A stretch of DNA of 59,419 nucleotides. Origin: a virus. Positions 21,605 through 55,000 of the stretch are shown here, piece after piece. The position numbers and the translations under genes are program-made. Within the stretch, counting starts at the first letter, position 1. Each line of letters opens with the position of its first letter. The stretch is taken from the IMG/VR virus record IMGVR_UViG_3300042691_005578, positions 1-59,419 of that record; one strand, written 5' to 3'. The notes below the pieces were generated by a model that was not told where the DNA came from, made no database searches, and saw only the letters and a list, made by a program, of their open reading frames with translations.

Positions 21605-22364
21605 CAAATTGCTCCACATAATTCCAATCGTCTAGATAGGATGCATCATTAGGCGTATAGGTTACTTGATACTTAATTTTTTCCAACGTGTCCACACTAG
21701 GATTAATGGCTGCATACGTATTAGCAATTGCAGTTTTAATATAACCCTGCATATCAACTGGACCGTAGAAGTTTATACCAAGATTAAAGGTTAGATTCCA
21801 TACAATAGATTGTCTTTGTGTAAACTCACCTTCATAATTGTCTTCGTATGAGACATTCTCCAATATAATTTGCAAGTCTCTTTTGATTCCCATTTCTGGG
21901 ATATCAGTTATGGACACACAAAAATCTGGATTGAAGAACGGTAAAATCTGTTCGATGATTTGAAGTCCATCATCTTGATTTTTTGTTACGATAAAAAGGG
22001 ATATCGATAAAGTATATGGGGTGCTAGTATACTGCACTCTTACTTTATCTGCATCGTCACCCACACCCACTGCGATATTCTTTGTAAGAATATTCAATTT
22101 CTGTTGTGGATTATATTGAAGACCAGTAATCTCGAAACCAATTCTAGGTAATGTGATTGCAACCGACGCGGGATCATTTCCAGGTACCGCGGCAACTCTT
22201 GCCAGAAATTTATCTTTAGGTCCGTATGCAAGAGGCACTCGAATGGACTGAGCCACTTCCCCCGCAGAGTTTTTACGCTCTACGGTTAGTTGATTGAATA
22301 TCGTTCCAAAAGCAATGATAGCTTTACGAATGTGCTGGTGATAAAAATGCTGCTTCAAAAACAT
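21588..22364 (-). CDS. 15: tail sheath terminator/tail completion protein gp15
   Basis: A 258-residue protein (T4: 272). The N-terminus FLKQHFYHQHIRKAIIAFGTIF and the segment VPLAYGPKDKFLARV are the signature of gp15, as is ITDIPEMGIKRDLQIILENVSY. It caps the sheath and tube so the tail can join the neck. The ATG overlaps the gene 14 stop by one base, and gene 16 starts inside its last codons. Confidence 0.95.
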   Translation of the reverse strand: MFLKQHFYHQHIRKAIIAFGTIFNQLTVERKNSAGEVAQSIRVPLAYGPKDKFLARVAAVPGNDPASVAITLPRIGFEITGLQYNPQQKLNILTKNIAVGVGDDADKVRVQYTSTPYTLSISLFIVTKNQDDGLQIIEQILPFFNPDFCVSITDIPEMGIKRDLQIILENVSYEDNYEGEFTQRQSIVWNLTFNLGINFYGPVDMQGYIKTAIANTYAAINPSVDTLEKIKYQVTYTPNDASYLDDWNYVEQFDEAYE

Positions 22365-23119
22365 TATGCCGCTGTCCTTACTTGAACTTCACCGAATGGA
22401 TTGAATGCTGTGAAATCTAAGAACTCGCCCGCTTCGTTTTCAAACTCATTAGTCTGATCTAAAGAATCAACGTTTGTTGTACCACTTTCTTGTAGGATAA
22501 TTGAGTCGCCGGTATTCGACAGAACAAAATCACCAGACTCCATGATAAGTTGCCAATCAAAAATGTCTTGAGTTAAGCCATCGGTAATACCATCAATTTC
22601 TTCAAGGCCAGTATCGATAGTTTCAGAACTAAATTCAAATACTTGGCATGACATTCTATATGTGTAAATCTTCCCTAACTGGTAGAAAGGATTTAAAAAG
22701 TCCACGTAGTTGATTTGAAAAAACGTCTTTGTTTTAGGAAAGAATAATAGATCGCCTTCAGATGGTCGCTCTGGTAACTGTAAATTTTCTGCATTTCTAC
22801 CAACAGATTCTTCCCAACGGCGTCTCGCGACAACAAAAGTTGCGGTCGATCTAAACTCAAAGCCGAACTTTGTTAGTAGTTCACCTTGACCTTCGAAGCC
22901 CTCTGTGTTTTCAAGATACATTTCCAATGGATATGCTTGGGTAAAATATGAAAGCGCATCTTCAAATAGAATTGGATCTTGGTTTGCTATGGTTCTAGGT
23001 AGATAGTAAACATCATGCCCATAAATCTTCATGCTTTCGATAATAAGGTCCTCCAACAAACGTTGTTCGTTTGTTGAACCTGATGTATTCCCTGATTGAA
23101 AGTAGAAATTGGTAGGCAT
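22364..23119 (-). CDS. 14: neck protein gp14
   Basis: A 251-residue protein (T4: 256). EQRLLEDLIIESMKIYGHDVYYLPR is the family signature, followed by LFEDALSYFTQAYPLEMYLE. With gp13 it builds the neck below the portal and provides the platform for the collar. It overlaps gene 15 by one base and follows gene 13 by 3 bases. Confidence 0.95.
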   Translation of the reverse strand: MPTNFYFQSGNTSGSTNEQRLLEDLIIESMKIYGHDVYYLPRTIANQDPILFEDALSYFTQAYPLEMYLENTEGFEGQGELLTKFGFEFRSTATFVVARRRWEESVGRNAENLQLPERPSEGDLLFFPKTKTFFQINYVDFLNPFYQLGKIYTYRMSCQVFEFSSETIDTGLEEIDGITDGLTQDIFDWQLIMESGDFVLSNTGDSIILQESGTTNVDSLDQTNEFENEAGEFLDFTAFNPFGEVQVRTAA

Positions 23120-24356: not shown

Positions 24357-26152
24357 TAGTTTAATAGTGTCCCAGCTGAATCATAGATGTTGATACGGAA
24401 ATATGCACTTGAATTGCCGTCTAGTAAATCTGCATCAAGTCCTGACCCTGCGCCATCTACGGTCTTAATTGCATCAAGCATATTAGTTGCGGTGAATGCA
24501 CCACCTAGAGATACGGATGTACCAGCAAGAGTGATTGCACTATTTGTCAGAGAACCATTACCGATATTCGATAGTGTATTTGATGCACCGCTGATTGTCT
24601 TGTTGGTAAGAGTTTCTGTACCAGCAAGTGTCGCTAGAGTGCCAGTAGTTGGTAATGTTACATTAGTTGCAGCAGTGGCAGTTAGAGTTGTGCTAAACGC
24701 ACCAGAAGTTGCTAGAGTAGAACCATTGGCAAGTGTTAGAGTAGAACCAGTTGCTGGAGCAGTAATCGCAACCTTGTTAACAGATGTGGCAGTTGCTACG
24801 CCAATAGTTGGAGTAACCAATGTCGGACTGGTTGCAAATACGGCAGCACCAGTACCAGTTTCATCAGTTAAGGCTGCTAGGAGTTGAGCAGAAGTGAATG
24901 ATCCAAGTACCGCTGCGTTGCCTACCGATGTGATATGCCCAGTTAAGTTCGCATTGGTCGTTACATTACCAGCAGTTAATCCAGAAGCTGTACCAGTTAC
25001 ATTGGTCATTACACCAGAAGCAGGAGTACCTAATGCTGGTGTTGTTAGTGTTGGACTGGTAAGTGTCTTGTTTGTAAGAGTTTGCGTTGCAGTAGTACCA
25101 ACAACTGGAATATAGTTGGTGCCGTCTACTGTGTATTCCCAGACATCACTAGTTTCATTCCATTGAAGGGCCACGTTAGTAGAACTGCCACGTTCAACTT
25201 CGATACCCGCATTCTGACTTGGGATGCCAGTTTCATTACTATTAAGTGTAATGATATTATCAGCAAGATTGATTGTTTCAGTATTTACTGTAGTTGTAGT
25301 TCCAGAAACAGTAAGATTGCCACTAACAGTTAAATCATTGAATGTAACGTTAGAACCAGTTCCAACTGCCTGACCAATAGCAACTGCACCATCAGTGATA
25401 GTAACACCTGTTCCTGCGCTGAAGTGAGCGCGGACATCTGTTGCACTTGGACCAGTATATGTAATTACACCAGTTGTATTGTTGTATGCTAGTGATCCAT
25501 CGCCGCCACTATCTGTTACAGATACCGCACCACGCGCAAGAGCATCTGTATACTGTGTGATTGTTGTTGCGATAGCACCTGAAGTGATCGTGATACCTGT
25601 GCCGGCGCTAAAGTGTGCGCGAACATCGGTAGCAGATGGCCCCGTATAAGTGATTACACCCGTAGTGGAATTGTATGCTAATGCACCGTCGCCACCGCTG
25701 TCTGTTACCGAGACTGCGCCTCTAGCGAGTGCATCTGTGTATTGGGTAATAGAAGTAGAGATAGCACCATCAGTAATAGAAATACCAGTGCTTGCGCTAA
25801 AGTGTGCGCGAACATCTGTTGCGCTTGGTCCTGTGTAAGTAATTACACCAGTTGTGCTATTATATGCAACTGAGCCATCGCCGCCGGAATCTGTTACCGA
25901 GACTGCGCCTCTTGCTCTTGTATTTGTAAAGTAGAGGTTTGTTGAACCTTCTGTAATCTCGTCACTGTTATCTTTAGTCTGAATTGCCGAAGTAACATAT
26001 GCTTCTGTTGCCAGAGGTTTACCACCTGCGGTAGTACCATCATGAACAACTACTGTATCTTTTGTTGTGTCGACCGTGACTTCACCCACTGCACCAGTAA
26101 AGGTTGAGTGCTGAACCGTAGTCCCTCGTCTAAGTTGTAAAATCGTTGCCAT
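24356..26152 (-). CDS. tail fibre protein with three 63-residue repeats
   Basis: A 598-residue fibre. Residues 1-50 form a tropism-determinant-type N-terminal domain ([16 protein letters not shown], then [21 protein letters not shown]). Three almost identical 63-residue repeats follow (about 80-258; each starts [14 protein letters not shown] and contains [11 protein letters not shown]). Next comes [20 protein letters not shown], a motif shared with the fibre at 27033-28724, then Thr/Ala/Leu-rich segments such as TLTNKT that suggest a trimeric beta-structured shaft. There is no obvious enzymatic domain. An AGGAG site precedes the ATG. It should bind host surface receptors, but the specificity is unknown. 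Confidence 0.85.
25379..25915 (-). repeat. three tandem 189-bp repeats in a fibre gene
   Basis: The coding sequence for residues 80-258 of the fibre consists of three in-frame units of exactly 63 codons. Protein identity is very high while many third codon positions differ, so these are old duplications held by selection rather than a recent copy. Confidence 0.85.
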
Positions 26153-27032: not shown

Positions 27033-28724
27033 TTAGTATGTTCCACCGTCGATATTACCGAACGAAGGAGCAACGCCTGAACCACCAGATTTTAGAACTT
27101 GTCCAGCAGTTCCAACTGCGGTTGCTTGGATAGCAGAAGTTCCGCTACCGAAGAGAACACCATTAGCAGTCAGAGTTGACGCGCCAGTACCACCGTTTCC
27201 AACTGTGATTGCAGACGCGAGAGACGAAATTGTTCCGCCTTCAAGGTTAGCAACAAGAGTAGCAATGGTATAACCAGTTGCCGCTGTGTTAACTGTTGTT
27301 GTTGGAGCAGCTTGTGAGTCCTTGAAGAGTCTCCACTTACCGTCCGAAGCATCGCGGAAGATACCTGAGTAAAGGTCTAGCGAACCGCTGGTATCATACA
27401 TACCGAACAGACCGATGTCAACTGCGTCAGTTGCGTTATTGTCGTTACCAACAAATACGAGAGGGTCGGTTACAGACAGAGTTGTCGAGTTGACAGTAGT
27501 TGTTGTTCCCGAAACTGTAAGGTTACCAGCAACTGTTACGTTAGCACCCGAAAGTGTAAGAGCAGTTGTGCCACCCGATGACTTAATGTCATTTCCGGTA
27601 ACTGTTAGGTCACCAGCAACAGCAACGTCTGCACCCGAAAGCGTCAGAGCAGTAGCAGTAGATGACTTAATGTCATTACCAGTTACGGTAAGATCGCCAG
27701 CAATAGCAACGTTTGCAGCATCAAGTGTAATAGCAGTTGCAGAAGATGACTTAATGTCATTTCCAGTAACTGTCAGGTCACCAGCAACAGCAACATCTGC
27801 ACCCGAAAGAGTGATAGAAGTTGTTCCGCCATTTGCCTTAATGTCGTTACCGCCAACTGTTAGGTCACCAACAAGGGTAACATTTTCTGTAAGAGCAACA
27901 GTTACGCCAGCATCTTCAGAACCTGAACCTGTGATAGCAATTTGGTTTGCAGTTCCAGCAACAGTAGCAACATAGTTACCAGTTGTGTCGGTTCCAAGAG
28001 CAACCGAGTTGGCAGCAATCGAGGCAACACCTGTTTCGCTGATTGTAATGTCGCCAGAAACGGCAGCATAGATGTAATCGCCAATATCTTCAGCAGTAAT
28101 CTTCTTGTTTGCAGTTGCCGAAGCATCATAAACAAGGAATTCGTCTGCATCAGCAAGTGATGTCAGAGCAGCAGCACCAGTAATATCAGCAGCGATACCA
28201 ACTTGGTTGTCAGAAATCGTTGTCTTGATACCACCTGAACCAGCAAAAGTCAGAGTTCCACCAGTCGAGAAGGAATCCGTATTTGGAGTTCCTTGGTTGT
28301 CGCTGATTGTGAACGAAGACGAAGCAGGTGAGGAGAATGCGAGTTGACCTGAACCGTTTGTGGTAAGAATCTGACCGTTTGAACCGTCTGCGGTTGGAAG
28401 GATCAGAGTAAGATCAGCAGCAAGCGAATCTGGTGCCTTTAGAGTTACTTTGTTGGAACCATTATTTGTTGCTTCAGCAAAGGTTGCTTTGCCAGCAACT
28501 GTTGTTGTTGCGTCCACAAGACGAGCATCAACCTTGTCTGTGAAGTATTTACCACCGACAGCATGAATTGCGGCAGAACCACCTTCCATTGATTCGATGT
28601 AAAGTTTTGCACTTGCGCCGCTATTGCTTGCGTCTTGTGCGTATGCCATTTCACCTTCTAGGAGGTCCGTGGTTGCAGGAGCAGTTGCACCCGAGCTTCT
28701 TTTAATTTGAATAATTGTTGACAT
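27033..28724 (-). CDS. tail fibre protein with GDLTVTGNDIK repeats, ending DGGTY
   Basis: A 563-residue fibre. The N-terminal domain (TIIQIKRSSGATAPATTDLL, then EGEMAYAQDASNSGASAKLY) is the tropism-determinant type. Residues 286-414 hold four 28-29-residue units beginning GDLTV[TG]GNDIK, and then [20 protein letters not shown]. The distal part includes FVGNDNNATDAVDIGLFGMY and KWRLFKDSQ, seen in marine phage fibres, and it ends GNIDGGTY. AAGGA precedes the ATG. It is probably a trimeric receptor-binding or fibre-shaft protein. Confidence 0.85.
   Translation of the reverse strand: MSTIIQIKRSSGATAPATTDLLEGEMAYAQDASNSGASAKLYIESMEGGSAAIHAVGGKYFTDKVDARLVDATTTVAGKATFAEATNNGSNKVTLKAPDSLAADLTLILPTADGSNGQILTTNGSGQLAFSSPASSSFTISDNQGTPNTDSFSTGGTLTFAGSGGIKTTISDNQVGIAADITGAAALTSLADADEFLVYDASATANKKITAEDIGDYIYAAVSGDITISETGVASIAANSVALGTDTTGNYVATVAGTANQIAITGSGSEDAGVTVALTENVTLVGDLTVGGNDIKANGGTTSITLSGADVAVAGDLTVTGNDIKSSSATAITLDAANVAIAGDLTVTGNDIKSSTATALTLSGADVAVAGDLTVTGNDIKSSGGTTALTLSGANVTVAGNLTVSGTTTTVNSTTLSVTDPLVFVGNDNNATDAVDIGLFGMYDTSGSLDLYSGIFRDASDGKWRLFKDSQAAPTTTVNTAATGYTIATLVANLEGGTISSLASAITVGNGGTGASTLTANGVLFGSGTSAIQATAVGTAGQVLKSGGSGVAPSFGNIDGGTY
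27483..27869 (-). repeat. tandem 28-29-codon repeats in a fibre gene
   Basis: Four to five in-frame units encode GDLTV..GNDIK followed by a LxLSGA[DN]V strand. The DNA units are similar but diverged at third positions. They probably form successive turns of a beta-helical shaft. Confidence 0.75.
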
Positions 28725-28759: not shown

Positions 28760-28975
28760 TTAATAAGTTCCGCCGTCAATGGACAAAGGAGCAACATTTG
28801 TGGAAGGATCTACTGCTTCCCATTTTAGAGTCTCTGAGTTATAAATCAATGTATATCCATCCTGTAATCCTGCTGCATCAACATTCGCCAAAGTCTCCAC
28901 CTTTTGAGCTCCGCGTGTGCTAACTACATTCGTATTTATAGTTTTAGAATTTGGAACGGTTACTTTTATAGCCAT
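28760..28975 (-). CDS. short fibre-associated protein ending DGGTY
   Basis: A 71-residue protein with the conserved phage-fibre turn DGYTLIYNSETLKWEAVD (residues about 39-56) and the terminus LSIDGGTY, shared with the fibre at 27033-28724 and the small protein at 26175-26381. The N-terminus differs from the tropism-determinant group. Its ATG overlaps the previous stop (TAATG), with GAGGT upstream. A small virion or fibre accessory protein is the best reading. Confidence 0.7.
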   Translation of the reverse strand: MAIKVTVPNSKTINTNVVSTRGAQKVETLANVDAAGLQDGYTLIYNSETLKWEAVDPSTNVAPLSIDGGTY

Positions 28976-29304
28976 TATTTTGTTACCTCTGGATTAACTA
29001 CTACAATTCCTTCGAGAACTCTGATAGTTTCTTCATCACTCACCACTTCAATATCGTAAACATATCTTCCTGCTTTAATTTCGGAAGTTTCTTCTGCCGT
29101 CAAAGATATAGTTACTTCTCCATCTAAGGGAGAAGTAATGGCTGCGGTAAAATCTATTGCGGTGTTTGTATAAAAAGACTTGCGCATCTGAGATGCGGCA
29201 GTATAATCAGAGAGATCCTTCGCATCTCCGTATTGATCACTGACTTCTATAGCAAAACTAAAGGTCGTTCCTTGATCAATATAAATATTTTGAACCTGCG
29301 CCAT
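28975..29304 (-). CDS. Ig-like/beta-sandwich fibre accessory protein
   Basis: A 109-residue protein with a beta-sandwich pattern: IYIDQGTTFSFAIEVSDQYG, then AASQMRKSFYT, GEVTISLTAEETSEI and RYVYDIEVVSDEETIRVLEG. This resembles the N-terminal domain of baseplate upper proteins and small marine-phage structural proteins that precede fibre genes. It is the first gene of the minus-strand fibre unit, behind a late box at 29332-29339. Exact role unknown. Confidence 0.7.
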   Translation of the reverse strand: MAQVQNIYIDQGTTFSFAIEVSDQYGDAKDLSDYTAASQMRKSFYTNTAIDFTAAITSPLDGEVTISLTAEETSEIKAGRYVYDIEVVSDEETIRVLEGIVVVNPEVTK

Positions 29305-29353: not shown

Positions 29354-30031
29354 ATGAAAACGATATTGATGCTAAAATATGGCACAAAATATTCCAAAGA
29401 AGATGTAGATCGTATTATCGAAGCCACTGGTGGCAAGTATAATTATGCCTGTATAACCGACGATACTACTCTTGATCCAAGAGTTAAAATAATTCCATTA
29501 CCAGAAGACGTTGACGGAACTTTTATTAAAATATGGATGTATGGATTAGAAGACTTGGGCGATGTTCTTTACTTTGACCTTGATATTAGAATACAAAAAG
29601 ATGTTGATAATTTATGGAATTATCTTGACGAACGCCCAACTATATGCTATACTTATTGGAAGAATATAAGTTGGGTGGATAAAAATGCTCGTTCTTATAG
29701 CGAACAATACTTGAGTAACTATAATTCTAGTGCCGTTCTATGGCGCTCCGGTAGTCCAAAAGCCAAAGAGATTTGGGAACATTTTAAAAAGGACATGGAC
29801 TATTATATGATCAAGTATTGGGGTGACGATAGATTTTTATGGCATGAGAAGTTTGATTTTAAGTGGTTTCCAAAAGGCGAGTTTTATTCTTTTCTCTATG
29901 GTGCAGACTACTACGACCCAGAGAAGAGAATTGTAGACAGATACCGACCAGAGTATACAGTATGTTTACTCAATGGTTTAGATTATTTTCCAGGATATGA
30001 TAAGAAATATGATGAACTTTCTAACAATTAA
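29354..30031 (+). CDS. glycosyltransferase-like protein 1 of a tandem array
   Basis: A 225-residue protein of GT-A type. MLKYGTKYSKEDVDRI starts it, YFDLDIRIQKDVD (74-86) carries the DxD metal/nucleotide-sugar motif, and NSSAVLWRSG and DDRFLW follow. These landmarks recur in the next three genes, showing tandem duplication. Such enzymes move a sugar from a nucleotide donor to a protein, lipid or glycan in the cytoplasm; the acceptor is unknown, and fibre or capsid proteins are candidates because the genes lie among fibre genes. An AGGTG site lies 5 bases before the ATG. Confidence 0.75.
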   Translation: MKTILMLKYGTKYSKEDVDRIIEATGGKYNYACITDDTTLDPRVKIIPLPEDVDGTFIKIWMYGLEDLGDVLYFDLDIRIQKDVDNLWNYLDERPTICYTYWKNISWVDKNARSYSEQYLSNYNSSAVLWRSGSPKAKEIWEHFKKDMDYYMIKYWGDDRFLWHEKFDFKWFPKGEFYSFLYGADYYDPEKRIVDRYRPEYTVCLLNGLDYFPGYDKKYDELSNN

Positions 30032-30767
30032 ATGGGGTGACAAATACTCATCTGATTATGTGAACAATCTTTATCACATGGTAAAGAAGAATTATACCGG
30101 AGAGTTTAGATTTATTTGCTATACGGATGATGCCACTGACCTAGAGTGTGAAGTTCATCCTATTCCAGATGATGACTTACTACACCCAAAATACTACTTT
30201 GGAAAAGAAGCATTTTGTTTTGATAGAGCCAAGTTTTTAATTTTTAATTCAGAAGAATGGCTAGATTGCGAAGAAGAAGATAAGTTCTGCTATTTGGATT
30301 TGGATGTAGTAGTTCAAAATAACATCGATGAGATTGATATCTTGGCCGAGAAACCTAGAATAATTCACTGCTTATGGCAGCCAGAAAATCAAATAGATGA
30401 TAGGTTCTTCATCGAAACAAGAGGTACATTTTTCAACTCTAGTATGATGCTGTGGTCATATGGTCAATGCCAACATATATATTATGATGTCTACGATAAT
30501 AATGAAATAGTTTTCAAAACATTTTTTAAGGGTAGTGATAACTATCATTATTGGCGTCAAAGAGACTTCTGGAAAAACATTCCAGAAAGTTGGGTATACT
30601 CTTGGAACAGAGGACGATATTATCCAGATGATGTAGTGCGTTTTAAATTTAGAGATGATGCCAAAATCTGCTTATTTAATACAGATAATGTTCCTCATCC
30701 ATCTACTAAAGATCACGTTGAATTATCTGAATGTCATGACAAAAATATTATTGGATTGTGGAAATGA
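30009..30767 (+). CDS. glycosyltransferase-like protein 2 of a tandem array
   Basis: A 252-residue paralogue of its neighbours: LTIKWGDKYSSDYVNNLY at the start, YLDLDVVVQNNID with DxD at 97-99, NSSMMLWSYG, DNYHYWRQRDFW and YSWNRGRYY near the end. I chose ATG 30009 (another ATG is at 30012) because all four family members begin just before the KWG motif; an ATG at 29997 would add four residues. It overlaps the preceding gene by 23 bases, so expression is coupled. Confidence 0.7.
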   Translation: MMNFLTIKWGDKYSSDYVNNLYHMVKKNYTGEFRFICYTDDATDLECEVHPIPDDDLLHPKYYFGKEAFCFDRAKFLIFNSEEWLDCEEEDKFCYLDLDVVVQNNIDEIDILAEKPRIIHCLWQPENQIDDRFFIETRGTFFNSSMMLWSYGQCQHIYYDVYDNNEIVFKTFFKGSDNYHYWRQRDFWKNIPESWVYSWNRGRYYPDDVVRFKFRDDAKICLFNTDNVPHPSTKDHVELSECHDKNIIGLWK

Positions 30768-31582
30768 GAGTCAATTACGTTTGTTGTAAATGGGGTACCA
30801 AATACGATGCCGAGTTTGTCAACCGACTTTATCGGATGGCAAAGAAGCATACTCCAGATAATTTTGAGTTTCACTTCTATTGCTATACAGATAACAGTGA
30901 GGGATTTGACGCCGAGATTAAAGTTATCGACTTCCCAGATATTCCCAACATCCATCCGAAATACTGGTTTGGTTCAGATGATTTTAAATACGGTATGGCA
31001 CGTTGTTGGGACAGACCAAAGACGTTCATCTTCAATACACACAACTTCGCAGACGATAAACCAACTGGAAGATTTGTCTTCTTCGACCTTGATGTTATCA
31101 TCCAAAACGATTTGTCGCCAATCATCACTTACGACCTAGAGAATCCTACCAAGTTGCGCTCATGGTGGCAAGACCCTCGTCCGATGAAGTCGCGTAATTT
31201 CAAGTTATCGCATGGTGCATATACAAATGGTAGTTGCATGGTATGGTCAGATGATCAGACAGAATGCATCTGGCAGGATGTTTTAGAACATCAAGAGCGT
31301 ATCTGGTTTACATTTACAGATGGTACAGACAACTATCATAGTTGGCGATGGGGAGAATTTAGCAATACCCCTCTGTGGAAACATTTTCCAAACACCTTTG
31401 CTTACTCATACAATCGTGGTCGTGACTGGCATGAAGACGATTTGGGTGTCGGCATATATAGAAAAGACTGTATTGTTTGTGTTTTTAATGTGGATCTACT
31501 TCCATTCACAGACAATAGCAGAGGAAAAGTGAAACAGGAATCCTTGGTCGATCCTGATCTTTTAGAGCATTGGAATGTTTGA
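30764..31582 (+). CDS. glycosyltransferase-like protein 3 of a tandem array
   Basis: A 272-residue protein, the longest of the four. It shows VCCKWGTKYDAEFVNRLYRM, FFDLDVIIQNDL with DxD at 108-110, NGSCMVWSDD, TDNYHSWRWGEF and YSYNRGRDW. It is closest to protein 2. The ATG at 30764 overlaps the stop of gene 2 (AAATGA); a GTG two codons earlier is less likely. The metal-binding DLD is intact, so the enzyme is probably active. Confidence 0.75.
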   Translation: MRVNYVCCKWGTKYDAEFVNRLYRMAKKHTPDNFEFHFYCYTDNSEGFDAEIKVIDFPDIPNIHPKYWFGSDDFKYGMARCWDRPKTFIFNTHNFADDKPTGRFVFFDLDVIIQNDLSPIITYDLENPTKLRSWWQDPRPMKSRNFKLSHGAYTNGSCMVWSDDQTECIWQDVLEHQERIWFTFTDGTDNYHSWRWGEFSNTPLWKHFPNTFAYSYNRGRDWHEDDLGVGIYRKDCIVCVFNVDLLPFTDNSRGKVKQESLVDPDLLEHWNV

Positions 31583-32265
31583 TGATTAGTATTTACACAG
31601 TGAAGTGGGGAACAAAATATAATGTTGACCATGTTAATAAAATACTTGAGCAATGCAGAGAACACATAACAACTGATTTTGATTTTTACTGTTTGACCGA
31701 ACATACCATCGGTTTACATTCTGACGTTATCGTAATTCCTTTTCCAGAAGATAATTACTATGAAAAATGGTGGAATAAATTATACTTATTCGATAAGCAA
31801 GTTGTATCTCAGCGCGGAGAAAAACTATTTCTGGATCTTGATATAGTTATTCAAAACAATATCGATTGCATAGTAGACCATGACCCAGAAGATGGTTTGA
31901 CATTTGTTCGCACTCACTGGCACAACATGAAGAAAATGAAACGCGATACGCAAGATATTCCTCGTGCATATACCGATCTAAATTCTAGTGTGTTAAGATG
32001 GAATGATAGATTGGATATCGATAAGATTACCAAGTTTGTTACAGACTATCCCGACCAAATGTTTTTTCATTATCGGGGCCTTGATAATCTTTTCGGACAT
32101 CAGCGCGACCGTTTATTGAAAATTGATTTTTTCCCATCTGGTTGGGTGTATAGTTACAACTACGGATATATGTGGCCAATCGATACTAGAGAACAAATTA
32201 TCCGAACCGAACCACTAATTTGCTTATATGATTCAATGGAAAGACCACAAGATGTTAAACTATAA
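31582..32265 (+). CDS. glycosyltransferase-like protein 4 of a tandem array
   Basis: A 227-residue paralogue: ISIYTVKWGTKYNVDHVNKI, FLDLDIVIQNNID with DxD at 85-87, NSSVLRWNDR, LDNLFGHQRDR and YSYNYGYMW. It lacks the loop before DxD that lengthens proteins 2 and 3, and so resembles protein 1 in size. I chose ATG 31582, where the previous stop overlaps (TGATG) and GGA lies upstream. Substrate unknown. Confidence 0.75.
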   Translation: MISIYTVKWGTKYNVDHVNKILEQCREHITTDFDFYCLTEHTIGLHSDVIVIPFPEDNYYEKWWNKLYLFDKQVVSQRGEKLFLDLDIVIQNNIDCIVDHDPEDGLTFVRTHWHNMKKMKRDTQDIPRAYTDLNSSVLRWNDRLDIDKITKFVTDYPDQMFFHYRGLDNLFGHQRDRLLKIDFFPSGWVYSYNYGYMWPIDTREQIIRTEPLICLYDSMERPQDVKL

Positions 32266-32909: not shown

Positions 32910-33647
32910 ATGGGAAGAGCGAGAGTTGTTGCACCTCCACCTGAGGATTATACACCAGAACCTTTAGTATCACTTCCGCTGGCGCCCGTTGAGGTAGTTG
33001 CGGAAGAGTGGATTGATGGAAACTTCCAAGAAGAAATTATTGAAGTTGTGAACGATGAGCCTTCTCAAGAAGAACTTGATAGAGAAAAAATCGCACAAGA
33101 AAAGCACGAAGAATTGCAGAGACAAAAACTTTTCGCCGAAGAGGAATCGAAAGTTGCCGCAGAAATAGTTGCTAAAGCAAAAGAGATTTTAGAAAATCCT
33201 CCTGTGAAAATTGAGACTGTAGTCGAAACAGTTATAGAAACCGTTCACGTTATAGACCCAAAATTGGTAGAAGAATTACAAGTTCTTACGGCAGCAAATG
33301 AAAAACTTACCAGAGAAAATGAAGCAGCGGCAAGAGTAAAAGAAGAACAAATTTTAAAGGCGCGACAACAGGCAACTGATCAACGCAGCAATCAACACAT
33401 GATTCAATTAAACATGACGCCAAAAATTCCATCGTTAATTAGTAAAATCAAAACATTATTTCGAAATCGCCGAATTAAGTCTGCTACTAATGTTGGAATT
33501 AAAAACTATGAAACTGCAATCCTCGAGAGAGCAAGAATTGCAGTTCCCAAGTTATTGGATGATATTGAAAACATGCACGAGCAGTTGACCATACTAGAAG
33601 ACCTGCTCACAAAATATAGTGAAGTTAAAAGCAATCAAGAAAGGTGA
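32910..33647 (+). CDS. acidic coiled-coil protein closing the plus-strand island
   Basis: A 245-residue protein of unknown family. The first 45 residues are Pro/Val-rich. A long charged helix follows (about 50-165, for example EELDREKIAQEKHEELQRQK), interrupted by VETVVETVIETVHVID-like beta/hydrophobic repeats. A basic segment (ISKIKTLFRNRRIKSATN) precedes a last helix with heptads (MHEQLTILEDLLTKYSEV). There is no membrane segment. A strong AAGGAAG precedes the ATG. It ends convergently with the oxygenase-like gene, overlapping it by 13 bases. It may be structural or organise the modification enzymes. Confidence 0.7.
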   Translation: MGRARVVAPPPEDYTPEPLVSLPLAPVEVVAEEWIDGNFQEEIIEVVNDEPSQEELDREKIAQEKHEELQRQKLFAEEESKVAAEIVAKAKEILENPPVKIETVVETVIETVHVIDPKLVEELQVLTAANEKLTRENEAAARVKEEQILKARQQATDQRSNQHMIQLNMTPKIPSLISKIKTLFRNRRIKSATNVGIKNYETAILERARIAVPKLLDDIENMHEQLTILEDLLTKYSEVKSNQER

Positions 33648-34285
33648 GAGGTATTCTCCCCTGTAATATCTTCAACCATTGATTTCCAGAGGTCCTCATG
33701 AGGAATGACATAACCGAGAGTGAGTCGCTTGCTGCGACTCCCAGCACAATGATAGAAGACTTTATCAGGCTCACTCCGCCTACCGAAGTAACCGACCTTG
33801 ACAGACCAGCCCTTGGGGTCCCAAAGAGTGACCATTTCTTTTGTTATTGGATCTAGATATCTAAAGAAACCACCATTCTCTTCTGTATTATAAGAAAGAA
33901 GAATGTTGTAGCCGCTTGCATTCCAGTTAGTGTGCCATCCCATAAATCCATTCTCGGGATAGTAAACATGTACCGCATTGTTTTTAGCGCCAAGAAAAGA
34001 AATTAATTCACGATTGAGTTTCTGTTGCTTCTCGCGGTGAGTGGTCGGGACAGAATCTACCAGTCCGATATCACAACAGAAAGCAGTTTCTGGATACCCC
34101 TCATGTTCACCGTCTTTCCCCACCAGCTCATTCATATACTTTTCAGAGGTGCCAGTATCAATATCAAAGCCTCGGCGTCTATCTGGCTCTCTCAATTTGT
34201 CGTGGTCTGTTTGTGAAAAGAACCACTCCGCATAAGGAGTAAGAATTTCCAGTAGTTCTGGATTTATATTTTTAGAAACCTTCAT
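33635..34285 (-). CDS. 2OG-Fe(II) oxygenase-like protein with HxN in place of HxD
   Basis: A 216-residue protein with a prolyl-hydroxylase-like core: VHVYYPENGFMGWHTNWNASGYNILLSYN (about 105-133), GGFFRYLDP, then VFYHCAGSRSKRLTLGYVIP. His118 and distal His179 would bind iron and Arg187 2-oxoglutarate. The usual acidic ligand is asparagine (Asn120) here, which is unusual. The enzyme may be active with a changed site, be a halogenase-like variant, or be inactive. It overlaps the next glycosyltransferase at its start (ATAATG), with GGACAAATA upstream. Confidence 0.6.
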   Translation of the reverse strand: MKVSKNINPELLEILTPYAEWFFSQTDHDKLREPDRRRGFDIDTGTSEKYMNELVGKDGEHEGYPETAFCCDIGLVDSVPTTHREKQQKLNRELISFLGAKNNAVHVYYPENGFMGWHTNWNASGYNILLSYNTEENGGFFRYLDPITKEMVTLWDPKGWSVKVGYFGRRSEPDKVFYHCAGSRSKRLTLGYVIPHEDLWKSMVEDITGENTSHLS

Positions 34286-34983
34286 TATTTGTCCAATACG
34301 GATGGCGGTAACGTATAGTGATAGATGACAATCTCTTGTCCTTGCAATTCTTCTTGTTTATAACCAATGACAAAATTCCACTTTGCATCTGGATCAGGAA
34401 ATCTTCCTGTCTTTACACCCATATCCCCATAAGTCAATAAGCGCCACATTGTAAATGTGTCCCACTGTAGTGCTTCTTTTGGATAGTGCTGTCTGTCGTA
34501 GCCGGGTTCATTCTGCTTACAATATTCGCCCCACCAAGCACTCATCAATTTGAGTGTTTGTTCATTATTACGATAGACAAATAGACCGCAATGCTCCGTC
34601 ATTTCCTCTGTTTCGGAAAGTTTAGTTAGTGCAGCGTTATACGGACGATTAGCAGTAAAGATTACATCCACATCATCTGGTATCTGTTCAAAGATTTTTC
34701 GAATATCGTCGTGTTGAACTTCTGTATCACAGTCCATATAAACTGTCAAGTCATACGGAGTTTTATCTAGCGCCCAGAGTTTGGCTCTCTTATGATATGG
34801 AACACCATCGGTAATAATGTTCTCAAAGATTTCTTCATCGCCTGGTTCTATCCATTCTGGATGAGTAAACAATGTAATTTTTGCATCTGGCCAATAGTCT
34901 AGAAGTGATAGTGCAGAGTTTTTCGCGGCTCTATAGTAACCTCTACGAAGAGATGCTACATAAACAAATCCGTTATTCTGCAT
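34285..34983 (-). CDS. glycosyltransferase-like protein (minus strand)
   Basis: A 232-residue GT-A-like protein: GFVYVASLRRGYYRAAKNSALSL at the start, YDLTVYMDCDTEVQ (77-90) with DxD at 84-86, CGLFVYRNN and a distal WDTFTMWRLL. It differs clearly from the plus-strand array (no KWGTKY start), so it is a separate family member. It lies between the oxygenase-like gene and a coiled-coil protein. Acceptor unknown; with the opposite-strand array it makes five potential sugar transferases in 6 kb. Confidence 0.7.
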   Translation of the reverse strand: MQNNGFVYVASLRRGYYRAAKNSALSLLDYWPDAKITLFTHPEWIEPGDEEIFENIITDGVPYHKRAKLWALDKTPYDLTVYMDCDTEVQHDDIRKIFEQIPDDVDVIFTANRPYNAALTKLSETEEMTEHCGLFVYRNNEQTLKLMSAWWGEYCKQNEPGYDRQHYPKEALQWDTFTMWRLLTYGDMGVKTGRFPDPDAKWNFVIGYKQEELQGQEIVIYHYTLPPSVLDK

Positions 34984-35440
34984 TCTTTTCTTCTTCCATG
35001 ATCAGCATGGTAGCATAGGCCATAACTTCAAGCGCAGACTTCGATCTACGAATCTTAGTTTTTAAGGCTTTGTTCGTGGAATTTTTTATAATAGCTACTT
35101 CAAAGGCTTCCAACTTGGCTTCGAAAAGAGTCTCGTCTTTACGGCGTTGCTGGTCTACTTTTGAACGTTCCATGCGCTGGCGAACTTCTTCTGCACGGCG
35201 CTCTTCGCGAAGACGAGTGTTCTCATCGATATCTTCTTCGGTGAACTTTTCCATGATAGCAATATAGTCTGGATTGCCACCCTCGCCTGATACCGATGCT
35301 GGCAGTCTCTTACCATCTGGATAGATGATAATTACCATTACTTGCTTTAGTTCTTTATTTAACCAAAAAGGTTCTTCGTAATCTTTAGTTTCGGCAATAA
35401 TGGCCGAATCCAATACGATGGCTTCTTCATCCACAATCAT
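34973..35440 (-). CDS. hypothetical charged helical protein
   Basis: A 155-residue protein: an N-terminal beta-like part (VMVIIIYPDGKRLPASVS), then a strongly charged helix (ENTRLREERRAEEVRQRMER, then KVDQQRRKDETLFEAKLEAF) and a basic second helix. It follows the RTYS-repeat protein gene by 45 bases. GGAGAG precedes the ATG. A fibre chaperone or assembly factor is possible from its place beside a fibre-type gene; I do not recognise the family. Confidence 0.7.
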   Translation of the reverse strand: MIVDEEAIVLDSAIIAETKDYEEPFWLNKELKQVMVIIIYPDGKRLPASVSGEGGNPDYIAIMEKFTEEDIDENTRLREERRAEEVRQRMERSKVDQQRRKDETLFEAKLEAFEVAIIKNSTNKALKTKIRRSKSALEVMAYATMLIMEEEKNAE

Positions 35441-35484
35441 TCAACTCTCCATAAAAAGAAATAATATAAAGTATATAGTATAGT

Positions 35485-36918
35485 TTAAGCGGTGCGAACC
35501 CAGAGAGATACTGTTGATACTGTATCTTTAGTTGCTTGAATTGTATCGCCCGCATATGTGCCAGAATATGTTCCAGAATAGGTTCTAGAACCGGAATAGT
35601 TTCCTGAGTAAGTTCTCGAACCTGCAAATGAGTTTGCGTATGAACCGGAATAAGTTCTGGAACCAGAATAGTTGGCGGAGTATGTTCTAGAACCGGCAAA
35701 TGAACCGGCAAAATTTGTTGGCACCGATACATATCCTGCGTTCGAATATGTTCTAGTACCTGCAAATGTCCCGGTAAAATTGGTTGAAGCCGATACATAG
35801 CTTGTTGAGTATGTGCGCGAACCCGCAAAGGTGCCACCAACAAAACCACCGAAATATCGAATATAGTTGGCAGAATATGTTCTTGAACCTGCAAAGGGTC
35901 TAGTCCCCGCGAAGTTGGTCGCATAAGATCCAGAATATGTTCTAGAACCGGCAAACGTTCTAGTACCAGAGAAGTTAGTCACATAAGATGTAGAATATGT
36001 TCTAGACCCGCCATATGCTACGTTAGAATATGTTCTGGTACCCGCAAAAGTATTTGCATATCCCGCTGGTGTATAAGTTCTAGTCCCAGCATATGCTACG
36101 TTAGAATATGTTCTGGTACCACCATAAGAGCCTGTATAGTTTACGGATGCGACTTGTTCACGAGTATCAGAAGCTGAACCCATGCTAACCCAGGTGCCAG
36201 GAGATGGCGATGATGCTTGGATCTTATATGTACCAATACTGGTGCTGATAATGCGATTTCTGAAATAAGGAATCATTTCCTGAATTTCAGTATCGGTCAT
36301 TTGCTTTACGTTATTGCCACTATATGTTTTCAGTGGACGAAAATCGGCATTCGGTGATGTTGTAGCCGCAGTCTTCTGCCAAATATAATAAGTTGTGTTA
36401 CCACCATTTGCAACATCGGTGATGGTGTAACGCGAGGTCCATGTACCGCCACTTGGCGCCGAGCCAGCAAGACGATACTGTCCCGCAGTATACTCTGATT
36501 CAGTAACCATTGCTGTGACCGCTTGGTCAATAATATCATTACGGATCTGAGCATCTGTCATTTGCTGAATTGCAGTGTCATATTGCAAAGGACGGTTTGT
36601 GATTGTACCAGTATCATTAGCAGTAATTTGCTTTGCATAATACGTTACGGTGGCTATAGCACCAGTAGCTGGGTGAGTACCAGTCGCTTCTGTTCTGTCC
36701 GTGTCAGCAAAAGTGCCGATTGCGGTACCAGAAAGTGCGTTTGCTGTATCAATATTAAGGTCAGCCGTATTAGAACCATTACTTGCCGCGCCAGCAAATC
36801 CTACTGTGATCTTATTTGCAATATAATTTTTGACTTCCGTATTTGACATGGTTTGCAAACCCTGAAAGTTTGCGGAAGTAATTGGTGTAGCAGATGCTTT
36901 GAGCTTTAAAGGATTCAT
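35485..36918 (-). CDS. RTYS-repeat virion or fibre protein
   Basis: A 477-residue protein in two parts. Residues about 20-260 contain three related modules, each opening like TMSNTEVKNYIANKI (23-37), QMTDAQIRNDIIDQAV (119-134) or QMTDTEIQEMIPYFRNRI (206-223); the last two continue with a GTW-containing strand. Residues 261-457 are a low-complexity domain with 14 copies of G[ST]R[TP][YF], spaced by Tyr/Ser/Asn/Phe-rich linkers (YSGSRTYSGSYANSFAGSRTYSG is a representative pattern, in 20-residue-type units). It has no charged residues other than regularly spaced Arg. It lies among fibre genes, so a flexible adhesive or fibre shaft is likely. AAGGC stands before the ATG. Confidence 0.8.
   Translation of the reverse strand: MNPLKLKASATPITSANFQGLQTMSNTEVKNYIANKITVGFAGAASNGSNTADLNIDTANALSGTAIGTFADTDRTEATGTHPATGAIATVTYYAKQITANDTGTITNRPLQYDTAIQQMTDAQIRNDIIDQAVTAMVTESEYTAGQYRLAGSAPSGGTWTSRYTITDVANGGNTTYYIWQKTAATTSPNADFRPLKTYSGNNVKQMTDTEIQEMIPYFRNRIISTSIGTYKIQASSPSPGTWVSMGSASDTREQVASVNYTGSYGGTRTYSNVAYAGTRTYTPAGYANTFAGTRTYSNVAYGGSRTYSTSYVTNFSGTRTFAGSRTYSGSYATNFAGTRPFAGSRTYSANYIRYFGGFVGGTFAGSRTYSTSYVSASTNFTGTFAGTRTYSNAGYVSVPTNFAGSFAGSRTYSANYSGSRTYSGSYANSFAGSRTYSGNYSGSRTYSGTYSGTYAGDTIQATKDTVSTVSLWVRTA
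35548..36138 (-). repeat. G[ST]RTYS coding repeat domain
   Basis: About 590 bases encode 14 copies of G[ST]R[TP][YF] separated by 6-18 residues. On the plus strand it appears as repeated gttctagaacc- or gttctggaacc-like blocks within gaatatgttct. Confidence 0.85.
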
Positions 36919-36929
36919 TTTCTATAGCC

Positions 36930-37412
36930 TTAATTTAGTCTAGTGCCGGTTGAATCAAATACCAACAGAGGGGTCAGTGAATACCAATCTGTAGCATCCT
37001 TAGCAACAAAAGTAGCAGATGATCCAGCAGCCACCGTTACAGCAACGTTAACCGTTCCGCCGTTAATCTTGTCTGATACGTTTGGATAAACTAGAAGATT
37101 TGTTGCAGTAGTATTAACAACTGTATAGGTCAACGAGGCTGCGGCTGTTGGGAGTTTAACACCTGCTCCAGAACCCACCGTAGTGACAATATTATAAACA
37201 TCCGAGAGTTCTGTTGCACCAGACTGATTTGTGCCTGCTGCGGAAACAGTAGCAGAGATGGAAGGCTTTAGATCGCCCGTTAGAGTAAGATTACCAAACG
37301 TAGGATTGTCACCCGATTGATACTTGTCAGTATTAAGATTGTTGAAGTTATTATCGACTTCGGTATTTGTAAGTGGCGATCCCTTTTCGGATCTAAGTGT
37401 AATTGTGGCCAT
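36930..37412 (-). CDS. fibre-type protein with GSPLTNTEVDNNF N-terminus
   Basis: A 160-residue protein. The N-terminal ITLRSEKGSPLTNTEVDNNF and NLNTDKYQ are the recurrent anchor sequence of marine-phage fibre/collar proteins. NPTFGNLTLTGDLKPSI follows, then a beta-rich domain whose LPTAAASLTYTVVNTTATNLLVYP pattern is typical of small trimeric tail proteins. AAGGT precedes the ATG. It probably attaches to the baseplate or fibre base and is co-transcribed with its neighbours. Confidence 0.75.
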   Translation of the reverse strand: MATITLRSEKGSPLTNTEVDNNFNNLNTDKYQSGDNPTFGNLTLTGDLKPSISATVSAAGTNQSGATELSDVYNIVTTVGSGAGVKLPTAAASLTYTVVNTTATNLLVYPNVSDKINGGTVNVAVTVAAGSSATFVAKDATDWYSLTPLLVFDSTGTRLN

Positions 37413-52057: not shown

Positions 52058-55000
52058 TTATGCCAACGATGTATTGGGATTTAATGCCGTATCGTCGTTG
52101 ATTGTCGCTTGTTCTGGGAAGGAGATTCCACCCGCTGAATTTAGAAGCTGACTACTACCGCCTGACCCCGCCGAAGTAAGACCATCTGGACCACCGATAA
52201 TAGGTGATGCCGAGACAGATACTGGCTTTTCAATAGGAATTGGATTTGCAAGTGTTGCAATCTTAGCGCCAGTTGCTTCACTTGCAGGATCCGCAGAATT
52301 TGCATTACCAGCAGTTACCGCTGATCCTGGTTCGGTAACAGAAGCAGATGTAGGACCAGATATCGGAAGATCGTGAGTGCTTCCACCATTAGTACCAGTA
52401 TCAGTTCCAGTTGCTCGAAGATTTGTGCTACCAGCATTCAGTGTGGAGACATTCGCAGTTGTAACGTCAAGAGTTGGTGTATCAATTGCTGAAGAAGCAA
52501 CAAGAGGTGCCTTAAGATTGATATTGCCCACACCCTCTACGTTGACAGCAGCGCCAGACTTGACGTTGGTTGCTGCCGCAGAGTTAACATTCACTGCATT
52601 ACCAGACTTGACATTAACTGAATCCGCTGCTTGTGCGTTTATCACATTTGCGGACTTGATATTTGTAGAAGCAATGGATTCTGTATTAACCGAACCAGCA
52701 GACTTGATGTTTGTATTACCAAGCGATTCGATGTTTGTATGTGTACCAGACTTACTATCGATAGTTACGGCGGCCTTGCTCAAGATTGAACCATCTGTGT
52801 CTTGATTGATATTGCCAACAGATGTATGATAAGAAACTCCAGATACCTTAACATGATAATCACCCTTAGATGTTACTTTATAACCGCTTGCGGTAAGGTT
52901 ATGAGTGCCATCAATTGTCGAATTGAAGTTGCCTGCACCATGTATTTGCATGTCGCCTTTATTATCGTGCGAGAATACACCATCGTTTCTAATGAAGATA
53001 CCGCCGCCTACAGATAGACCAAAGTGGCCAGCAACGTTTAGATTGAAGTCATTATGAACATCCATGTTGACCTTACCATTCATAGTAAGATTTGCATCGC
53101 CCATAATCATAACATTACATTCACCTGCAACGTGAACATTCGCCCGGCCTTCAATTAAAATATATCCGTTGTTGTCGATAATTGTATAGTTATCACCAAC
53201 AACGCGAGTTACTTGTGTTCCGTCAGGGCCGATTTCATTAAATGATCCTGATTTATGTGCAGTATGAATACGTTCTGCACCAGGAGTATCGTCGATTTCT
53301 TGAACGTGACCCGACTCGGATGCAGTAACCTTATTAAACGGATACTGTGCGGCATATGCAGTCTTGGGTTGCGACCAAGATCCACCGTTTCTACCCGCTT
53401 TTGGAATATCTCTTTTGCGAAGAGCATTCTTGGCTGCCGGAGATGCACCAGAACTTAGACTTTCCTGATTTGCACCCTGTGATGTCGGGTTATTTTGAAT
53501 ATGAGGAGAATTTATGCCCACCGCAAGAGGATTAGTATCTGGTTTACCACCGAGAGACTTCTTGGGATATTGGCCTCTTGGATCACCGAAGCCGTTTTCA
53601 GTATCATTTGTTACTGGAATATTCGCAGCATCCGATGGGGCTTGTGTCAATGACTGCGCGGTATCTGCCGCGGCGGGATGTTCTACGCTATCTGCTTGTA
53701 GTGGATTTGTATTCGGAGGAGCTGTTGCGATAGGCGGAGCAACTCTCGTCACTTCTTTTTGTGAAGACGCGAACCCTTTTTGATCTTCTACAATTGTAGT
53801 TGTTACTACAGAACCATCGCCATATTTTTCGGTGACAACAGTAGTCGTTGAACCGTCTTCACCTGGTTTACTTGCACCCTGAGAGGCTACTGGAGTATTA
53901 TTACTAAAAGTTTTCTTGACTTTCTCAAGATTTGTAGTATACTCACCGGCAATGCCAGACTTGGCACTAATAAGATCATTTGATAGTGCAGTATCTGGTC
54001 CAAGTGGAGGATTATTAGTATCTCTAACCCATTTATTATAGTTAAAGATGATGTCTTTTTGTTCTCTCTTTAGAGAAGTAATAACATCAAGCCATGCTTC
54101 TGCGGTAGGAAGATCCCACTTAGCTGTTGACGTATCGCCCGCGGAAACCTCTTGCGTCAATTCAACAATGTCTCGCATCGTGGATTCAATTTCGCGAGTT
54201 AATTGGGCGTCAATACTTTCCTGCCATTCAGGTCTGTTCAGAGATATAATATATTTTGTTCTATCTGGTTGATAGTTTATCGGTTTTAGTCCGTCGACCT
54301 GTATTGCGTAGTTACCTCCAAACGGAATAACTGTGGCAATTATTGGAATCTCTCTGAGTGGCAGCGCCCCGCTATTTTGAGGATAAAGAGCATTTCCAAG
54401 ATTTTGTTCAAAGATTTTAGGTGTTTTTGGAGTATAGTTATTGATACGTTCTTGCTTAATTGCACCATCAATAGCAGAAATCAGTATCGAATATTGAGGA
54501 GTTTTTATATCTGTCTTATCAATCAAGTTTACAGAAGCAATCGGTTCACCTTTAGATGATAGTGTGACAACACCATTAGATGCTGTCCATTGATATGAAA
54601 CTTCAACTGAGCCATATGTAGACTTCATTGGATTGGGGTCGACAGGCGGCGAAGAAGCCTGCGTTGGTCCTCCTACCGCAGCCGCAATTTGCGTAGACGG
54701 TAGCGCAGGAACTGCATCCGCAGACGCTGCACCTGTTTGAGGAGTTGGAGGAACAGAAGCGGGGGATACCGGCAAGAACGACGAAACAATTTCACCTTCT
54801 GCTGGCTTTTCGGTGGTGGTAGGTGAAGAACCGCCCAACATTCCTGAAACATTTGATGCTGCATTTGACAACGCACTTGTAACGTTGCCCGTGGCAGAGT
54901 TGAGTGCTCCTTGTGCGTTACCAGCTATACCCGAAACCGCGCCAGTTGCCGCTGATACAGCGCCCGTAACATTTGATACCGCAGAAGCACCAAGGGCAGC

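Follow-up and report, generated by a model that had tools for sequence, protein, structure and literature searches.

The window analyzed here (positions 1 to 59,419 of the IMG/VR record IMGVR_UViG_3300042691_005578) derives from an uncultured T4-like phage, whose genome it covers in part. It carries genes for the major head protein, scaffold, portal, sheath, and terminase, along with gp14-type head closure, baseplate wedge, and gp5-type genes. Among the matches listed, cyanophage homologues share no more than ∼39% identity with the scaffold protein, and the G+C content of the window is 41%, compared with about 31 to 35% in pelagimyophage genomes tabulated in PMC7029224. On the minus strand, an open reading frame (ORF) of 477 amino acids (35485..36918), represented by full-length relatives in IMG/VR, lies between the baseplate genes and gp5 (52058-57274) and gp14 (22364-23119), a location typical of phage receptor-binding proteins and tail fibers. 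The variable region from gp5 and the baseplate genes to gp14 has been described as the host recognition cluster of pelagimyophages (PMC7029224).

The putative fiber gene has syntenic neighbors, all on the minus strand. Upstream, a gene encoding a 160-aa protein (36930..37412) occupies the same place in the mapped relatives. Downstream follow a gene for a 155-aa protein that may be an assembly factor (34973..35440) and for which Pfam and PHROG returned no family match; a glycosyltransferase-like gene (34285..34983; sub-threshold Pfam GT2 hit, E = 0.003); and a gene recognized in alignments by an HxN...H...R pattern (33635..34285), possibly 2OG-oxygenase-like. The product of the last gene has no Pfam hit; its invariant HxN and HCAG...R resemble the 2OG-oxygenase triad, with Asn replacing Asp. 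A convergent block of glycosyltransferase-like genes (29354-32265) is also conserved beside the fiber gene; among the glycosyltransferase-like genes, two match phrog_1962 and one shows the sub-threshold GT2 hit. The order of the neighbors is kept in the mapped relatives, Arg-bearing or not, with some local losses and insertions. It is possible that the glycosyltransferase-like and HxN...H...R genes modify the fiber or the host surface, and modification of the host surface is among the proposals made in PMC7029224.

The stretch at 35548-36138, which encodes residues 261 to 457, had been noted for 14 G[ST]R[TP][YF] units and a near absence of acidic residues, and both observations were confirmed. 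Exactly 14 units are found within residues 267 to 447, whereas 2,000 shuffles of the repeat region produced at most 2 (mean, 0.06), and the 197-aa repeat includes 41 Tyr/Phe, 15 Arg, and no Asp or Glu. Differences from close relatives within the repeat are mostly synonymous (pN/pS of 0.05 to 0.17), so that the protein sequence is under purifying selection; given this and the conservation of the ORF in >200 loci, the reading frame is real. A 175-aa minus-strand ORF covers the repeat in another frame (35427-35954) and appears to be a by-product of the repeat, with no support as a gene.

The repeat units do not form a single tandem array but are divided between two arms that surround a conserved nonrepeat tip. 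The protein starts with a conserved head (residues 1 to 260; 36139..36918) that is predicted to consist of tandem helix-plus-β-hairpin modules, judging from family alignments, the AlphaFold2 (AF2) model of a relative (L112), and hhalign, by which modules 2 and 3 are alike (E-values from a single comparison). The N-arm (residues 261 to 355, 95 aa; 35854..36138) contains 8 of the 14 GxR[TP][YF] units, and the C-arm (residues 360 to 455, 96 aa; 35554..35841) contains 6. The tip motif RYFGGF (residues 354 to 359; 35842..35859) is located mid-domain and shares its first two residues with the end of the N-arm. The C-terminal segment AGDTIQATKDTVSTVSLWVRTA (35488..35553), conserved in the relatives, is the putative closing strand of module 3: its end weakly resembles the last strand of module 2 by hhalign, and the equivalent segment forms the final strand of the long hairpin modeled for L112. 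All these features are on the minus strand.

Scans of IMG/VR yielded overlapping sets of 36, 210, and 286 confirmed stretches or loci (from the latter two, the best 80 of 210 and the best 80 of 286). These relatives have conserved heads and a conserved closing C-terminal segment, but the intervening repeat is not conserved. Most of the >200 relatives have a Y-x-G-x repeat with almost no Arg, and in some, acidic residues make up 10 to 11% of the part analyzed. Arg is therefore a feature of a clade rather than of the function; as these comparisons indicate, it is a trait of one clade and, separately, of the type represented by Phage C48C1 (Kyanoviridae). The latter was the only match of the window protein in INPHARED (28% identity, tblastn E = 3e-11, residues 4 to 354); the INPHARED phages included no cultured carrier of the close family, and no relative was found in bacterial genome contigs. 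Pfam and PHROG profiles gave no hit for the window protein, Pfam gave none for the isolated repeat, and searches of PDB sequences with the protein, its profile, the C48C1 protein, and the pure repeat returned no match.

A strict tip pattern, [LRIVPQA][YFND][YF][GSA]G[FYV], occurs once in 52 of the 57 distinct repeat domains, always mid-domain, and sequences with exactly one match were used to measure the arms. The N-arm, from DTR to the tip motif, spans 42 to 118 aa and the C-arm, from the tip motif to LW, 51 to 127 aa, with a correlation of r = 0.998 across the 52 sequences. The C-arm exceeds the N-arm by 5 to 11 aa, mostly 9, an offset that results from the choice of anchors. On the head tree, the length of the N-arm changed at least 28 times and that of the C-arm at least 30 times; among 19 independent pairs differing in N-arm length, the C-arm differed in the same direction in 18 and was unchanged in one (r = 0.997). 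In most of the pairs of close relatives tested, indels are of equal size in both arms (22/22, 44/44, 8/8, 12/12, 10/10, and 16+4/16+4). Pairwise alignments place these mostly at mirrored positions, for example, 12 aa at −64..−53 and +60..+71, 22 aa at −74..−53 and +54..+75, and 10 aa at −70..−61 and +60..+69, indel placement within repeats being approximate. In some pairs, such as the window protein versus L055 or L063, the indel positions chosen by the aligner were not mirrored, but the sizes were still equal. Among the relatives compared for indels, no intermediate was seen whose arms differed in length by more than a few residues. In the Arg-poor proteins listed, furthermore, the best mirror axis obtained from Tyr pairing, without reference to the tip, lies at the tip motif; in the Arg clade, this axis is not sharp because of bulges and Tyr-Arg pairing.

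The two arms also complement each other in composition. In Arg-poor relatives, the repeat contains six-residue steps of two kinds, K (Y.G.K.Y) and T (Y.GTS.Y), and for 72 of the 78 K units, the mirrored position in the other arm is occupied by a T unit, to within one residue; the remaining 6 (in L064 and L066) are two residues off a T unit, and none is opposite another K. Shifting the mirror by 2 to 16 residues leaves 0 to 14 K/T matches, the 14 being obtained at a sum shift of +2. Mirror complementarity holds for all 36 proteins with K and T units around a single tip, for example, L070, with the unit string KKTTKKK|TTTKKTT. Symmetry of this kind might also result if one arm had simply been copied by direct duplication, and the KT|KT patterns of 25 proteins are compatible with both ideas. 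However, KKT|KTT, KKKT|KTTT, and KKTTKKK|TTTKKTT fit only mirror complementarity: all 11 proteins able to discriminate fit the mirror and none fits direct duplication, which the mirror-paired indels also contradict. Direct duplication was rejected on the strength of these 11 proteins, and its probability is close to nil. The Lys/Thr-Ser code is absent in the distant long-repeat relatives L206 to L216; L206, L207, L209, L212, and L216 are proteins of 660 to 750 aa with Gly/Pro-rich repeats.

In the Arg clade, an alignment-free count that was anchored at the base and continued up to the first odd gap placed 44 of 44 Arg residues opposite Tyr/Phe, as follows from RTY being its own complement; this count assumes the register set by the base, since in a neighboring register the facing residue would be Gly, Arg, or once more Tyr, and for most Arg-type proteins only the first, conserved unit enters the count. 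An automatic face-based alignment of the arms of long Arg-type proteins, crude and noisy, with gaps treated as bulges, showed no enrichment of Arg-Tyr (88/196), so that confidence in the Arg-Tyr code is confined to the region near the base and to L063, which has no bulges.

Within each arm, the gaps between consecutive aromatic residues are mostly even (30 of 40 in the window protein and 237 of 266 in the C48C1 protein), beyond what is seen in shuffles, and even spacing reaches z above 3 in 40 of 61 distinct relatives. Between the aromatics, Gly and Arg/Lys fall on one face and Ser/Thr/Ala/Asn fall on the other, an alternation characteristic of a β-strand. AF2 was uninformative for the window protein (monomer pLDDT of 34; 16 close relatives included). 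For L112, the shortest relative (330 aa; 59 sequences), AF2 reached a pLDDT of 88 and a pTM of 0.81, with pLDDT values of 87 to 98 across the head part. The L112 model consists of helix-plus-hairpin modules, the last of which is lengthened into strands 249-279 and 290-328; that the hairpin extends a head module is thus supported by prediction. The center of the hairpin turn, 284.5, is the mirror center computed from the other sequences (i + j = n − 7); L112 lacks the strict tip motif, and its own motif played no part in predicting the center. The repeat core, or outer ribbon, of L112 is modeled at a pLDDT of 37 to 62 only, and given this low confidence, as for the window protein, the evidence for a long ribbon comes mainly from the sequences. 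A Foldseek search of PDB and BFVD with the L112 monomer model, including its low-confidence ribbon core, yielded nothing at E ≤ 0.001.

The length-matched, mirror-complementary arms imply antiparallel pairing, and we consider it very probable that the repeat domain is a long antiparallel β-hairpin with unit-by-unit pairing, probably serving as the trimeric shaft of a baseplate fiber for host recognition. The ribbon would grow from the hairpin of the last helix/β-hairpin module of the head; the chain would run out for ∼95 residues, turn at the conserved aromatic/Gly tip, and return to the closing C-terminal strand. The repeat would then act as a pairing code, with one face made of Tyr/Phe, Gly, and Arg/Lys and the other made of Ser/Thr/Ala/Asn: in the clade of the window protein, RTY would stand opposite RTY (Arg-Tyr, Thr-Thr, Tyr-Arg), and in the Arg-poor clade, Lys units would stand opposite Thr-Ser units. 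Because units would pair one by one, the arms would have to stay equal in length and indels would have to occur in both. Several such ribbons, probably three, may lie side by side with their aromatic faces inward, forming the shaft of a baseplate-associated fiber that would hold the tip off the particle for host recognition. At 0.33 nm per residue, 95 residues would give a ribbon of about 31 nm in the window phage.

The preliminary description had instead proposed a disordered domain in which Arg and Tyr act as stickers, driving condensation or binding DNA or anionic polymers. The low complexity, the richness in Arg and Tyr without acidic residues, and the very low AF2 confidence for the window protein monomer would all suit such a domain. 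However, Arg and Tyr are not jointly conserved, as Arg is lost in most relatives while the architecture is kept, and some relatives are 10 to 11% acidic in the part analyzed. Moreover, the two-face parity speaks against disorder, which also leaves unexplained the matched arm lengths, the paired indels, and the complementary units, all pointing to a fixed register; a sticker domain is thus highly improbable. The Arg/Tyr contacts themselves probably occur, but within the fold. The outcome that had been named as incompatible with disorder, a regular β-solenoid with a buried Tyr/Arg ladder, is approached in spirit, in that a regular β-structure with an aromatic/Arg ladder is indicated; the predicted structure is a hairpin ribbon, not a solenoid. 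The same length matching and complementarity around a shared tip axis would also be expected if each N-arm paired with the C-arm of a partner subunit or if the arms formed a closed multistrand barrel. This arrangement is unlikely, given that AF2 closes the L112 hairpin within one predicted chain and that the base strands are part of a single small module.

The suggestion that this is a virion or fiber protein has fared better. The protein could be a hairpin that is not part of a virion fiber, that is, a secreted or intracellular phage protein, an assembly scaffold, or a substrate of the glycosyltransferase- and oxygenase-like enzymes, and the synteny of those genes in relatives with and without Arg would be in keeping with the last variant. 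The location in the fiber region of T4-like phages, from gp5 to gp14, as delineated for the cluster in PMC7029224, the baseplate- and fiber-type neighbors, and the large globular inserts in relatives, including an FG-GAP domain, argue for a fiber and leave a nonfiber hairpin only a small chance. A fiber is the best-supported general class for the hairpin ribbon.

The C48C1 protein (OQ984149, WJE88074.1) is a giant of 3,347 aa that is annotated only as hypothetical, and 26 further loci of that type were found in IMG/VR. It shares with the window protein a homologous head and alternating aromatic/Gly/Arg repeats and, together with its IMG/VR relatives, a closing strand (...YTLYVRVA) and a mid-domain tip insert, but proteins of this type differ in size (850 to 3,347 aa), in the presence of several globular inserts, and in their repeat units. 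The homologous head and the LW/LY-x-R closing strand that mark the C48C1-type fiber superfamily, as defined here, are both present in the window protein, and the window protein and the giant relatives alike have a central tip flanked by two repeat arms of equal length. In 11 complete C48C1-type proteins (850 to 2,059 aa), a nonrepeat insert lies within 0 to 24 aa of the repeat midpoint, and in C48C1 itself, 1,002 of the 2,004 repeat residues precede an insert that by eye resembles the tip domain of the others (boundaries approximate). One giant relative carries an FG-GAP domain (E = 8e-17). Tyr-Tyr mirror scores single out no register in the C48C1 type, so the position of the insert relative to the midpoint was the only evidence used. 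The midpoint inserts make it likely that an out-and-back plan with an exchangeable tip is general across the giant relatives, at the level of the midpoint rather than of residue pairing. In the 3,347-aa C48C1 protein at L218:2012-12055, several globular inserts are found, most of them after the presumed tip and in the second arm only.

Elongated β-rich shafts made of short repeats are known from the long and short tail fibers of T4 (gp34-37, gp12) and from the triple β-spiral of adenovirus. The window protein would share this general design, but in those fibers the chain runs from base to tip once, whereas here it would go out and back, with the C-terminus returning to the head and the arm lengths matched. 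CdiA-type sticks extend outward, present a receptor-binding tip, and come back, as would be the case here; CdiA uses β-helical parts in a cell-surface toxin system, and no sequence or fold match was found for the phage protein. The host recognition clusters of cyano- and pelagimyophages resemble the locus in that fiber genes and several glycosyltransferases occur in the structural region of T4-like phages, but neither a hairpin fiber nor a mirror code figures in the description of these clusters in PMC7029224. The GNVTGNLTG repeats in a structural protein of Synechococcus phage S-RIM2 share a four-residue period (x-T-G-x) and gave a weak tblastn match; with valine/leucine instead of tyrosine and another head, S-RIM2 was rejected as a relative, the match being judged compositional on inspection of the sequence. 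Enterococcus phage Riverwalk was matched in the same search. Titles and abstracts on tyrosine-rich or hairpin phage fibers included nothing matching.

It is a realistic possibility that the fold of the shaft constitutes a new class. We lean, with some reserve, towards a class of fibrous proteins built as giant coded β-ribbons, in which compensatory mirror indels would occur as in RNA stems and the host-recognition tips would be exchangeable, the ribbon measuring about 30 nm here and, by extrapolation, possibly hundreds of nanometers in relatives. Tyr/Gly/Arg low-complexity repeats are usually called disordered or sticky, yet here comparative sequence analysis alone points to a precise fold, through paired indels and a complementarity code, neither of them usual in proteins. 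Confirmation of this fold would establish a new fiber-shaft architecture in aquatic phages, suggestive of a modular material of adjustable length; provide a sequence-based search rule (equal arms around a tip); supply candidate host-binding tip domains; and pose the puzzle of what keeps the lengths of two widely separated parts of a gene in step.

Other repeat- and fiber-related genes are found in the same window. A 598-aa gene containing a 189-nt tandem repeat (25386-25912) encodes a major tropism determinant N-terminal domain (Mtd_N, E = 8e-15), and an 84-nt tandem repeat (27513-27874) lies in a gene of structural type (27033-28724; 563 aa) that has a weak β-helix hit. Finally, a 109-aa protein akin to L-shaped tail fiber assembly proteins (phrog_3304; 28975-29304) is conserved beside the fiber block.
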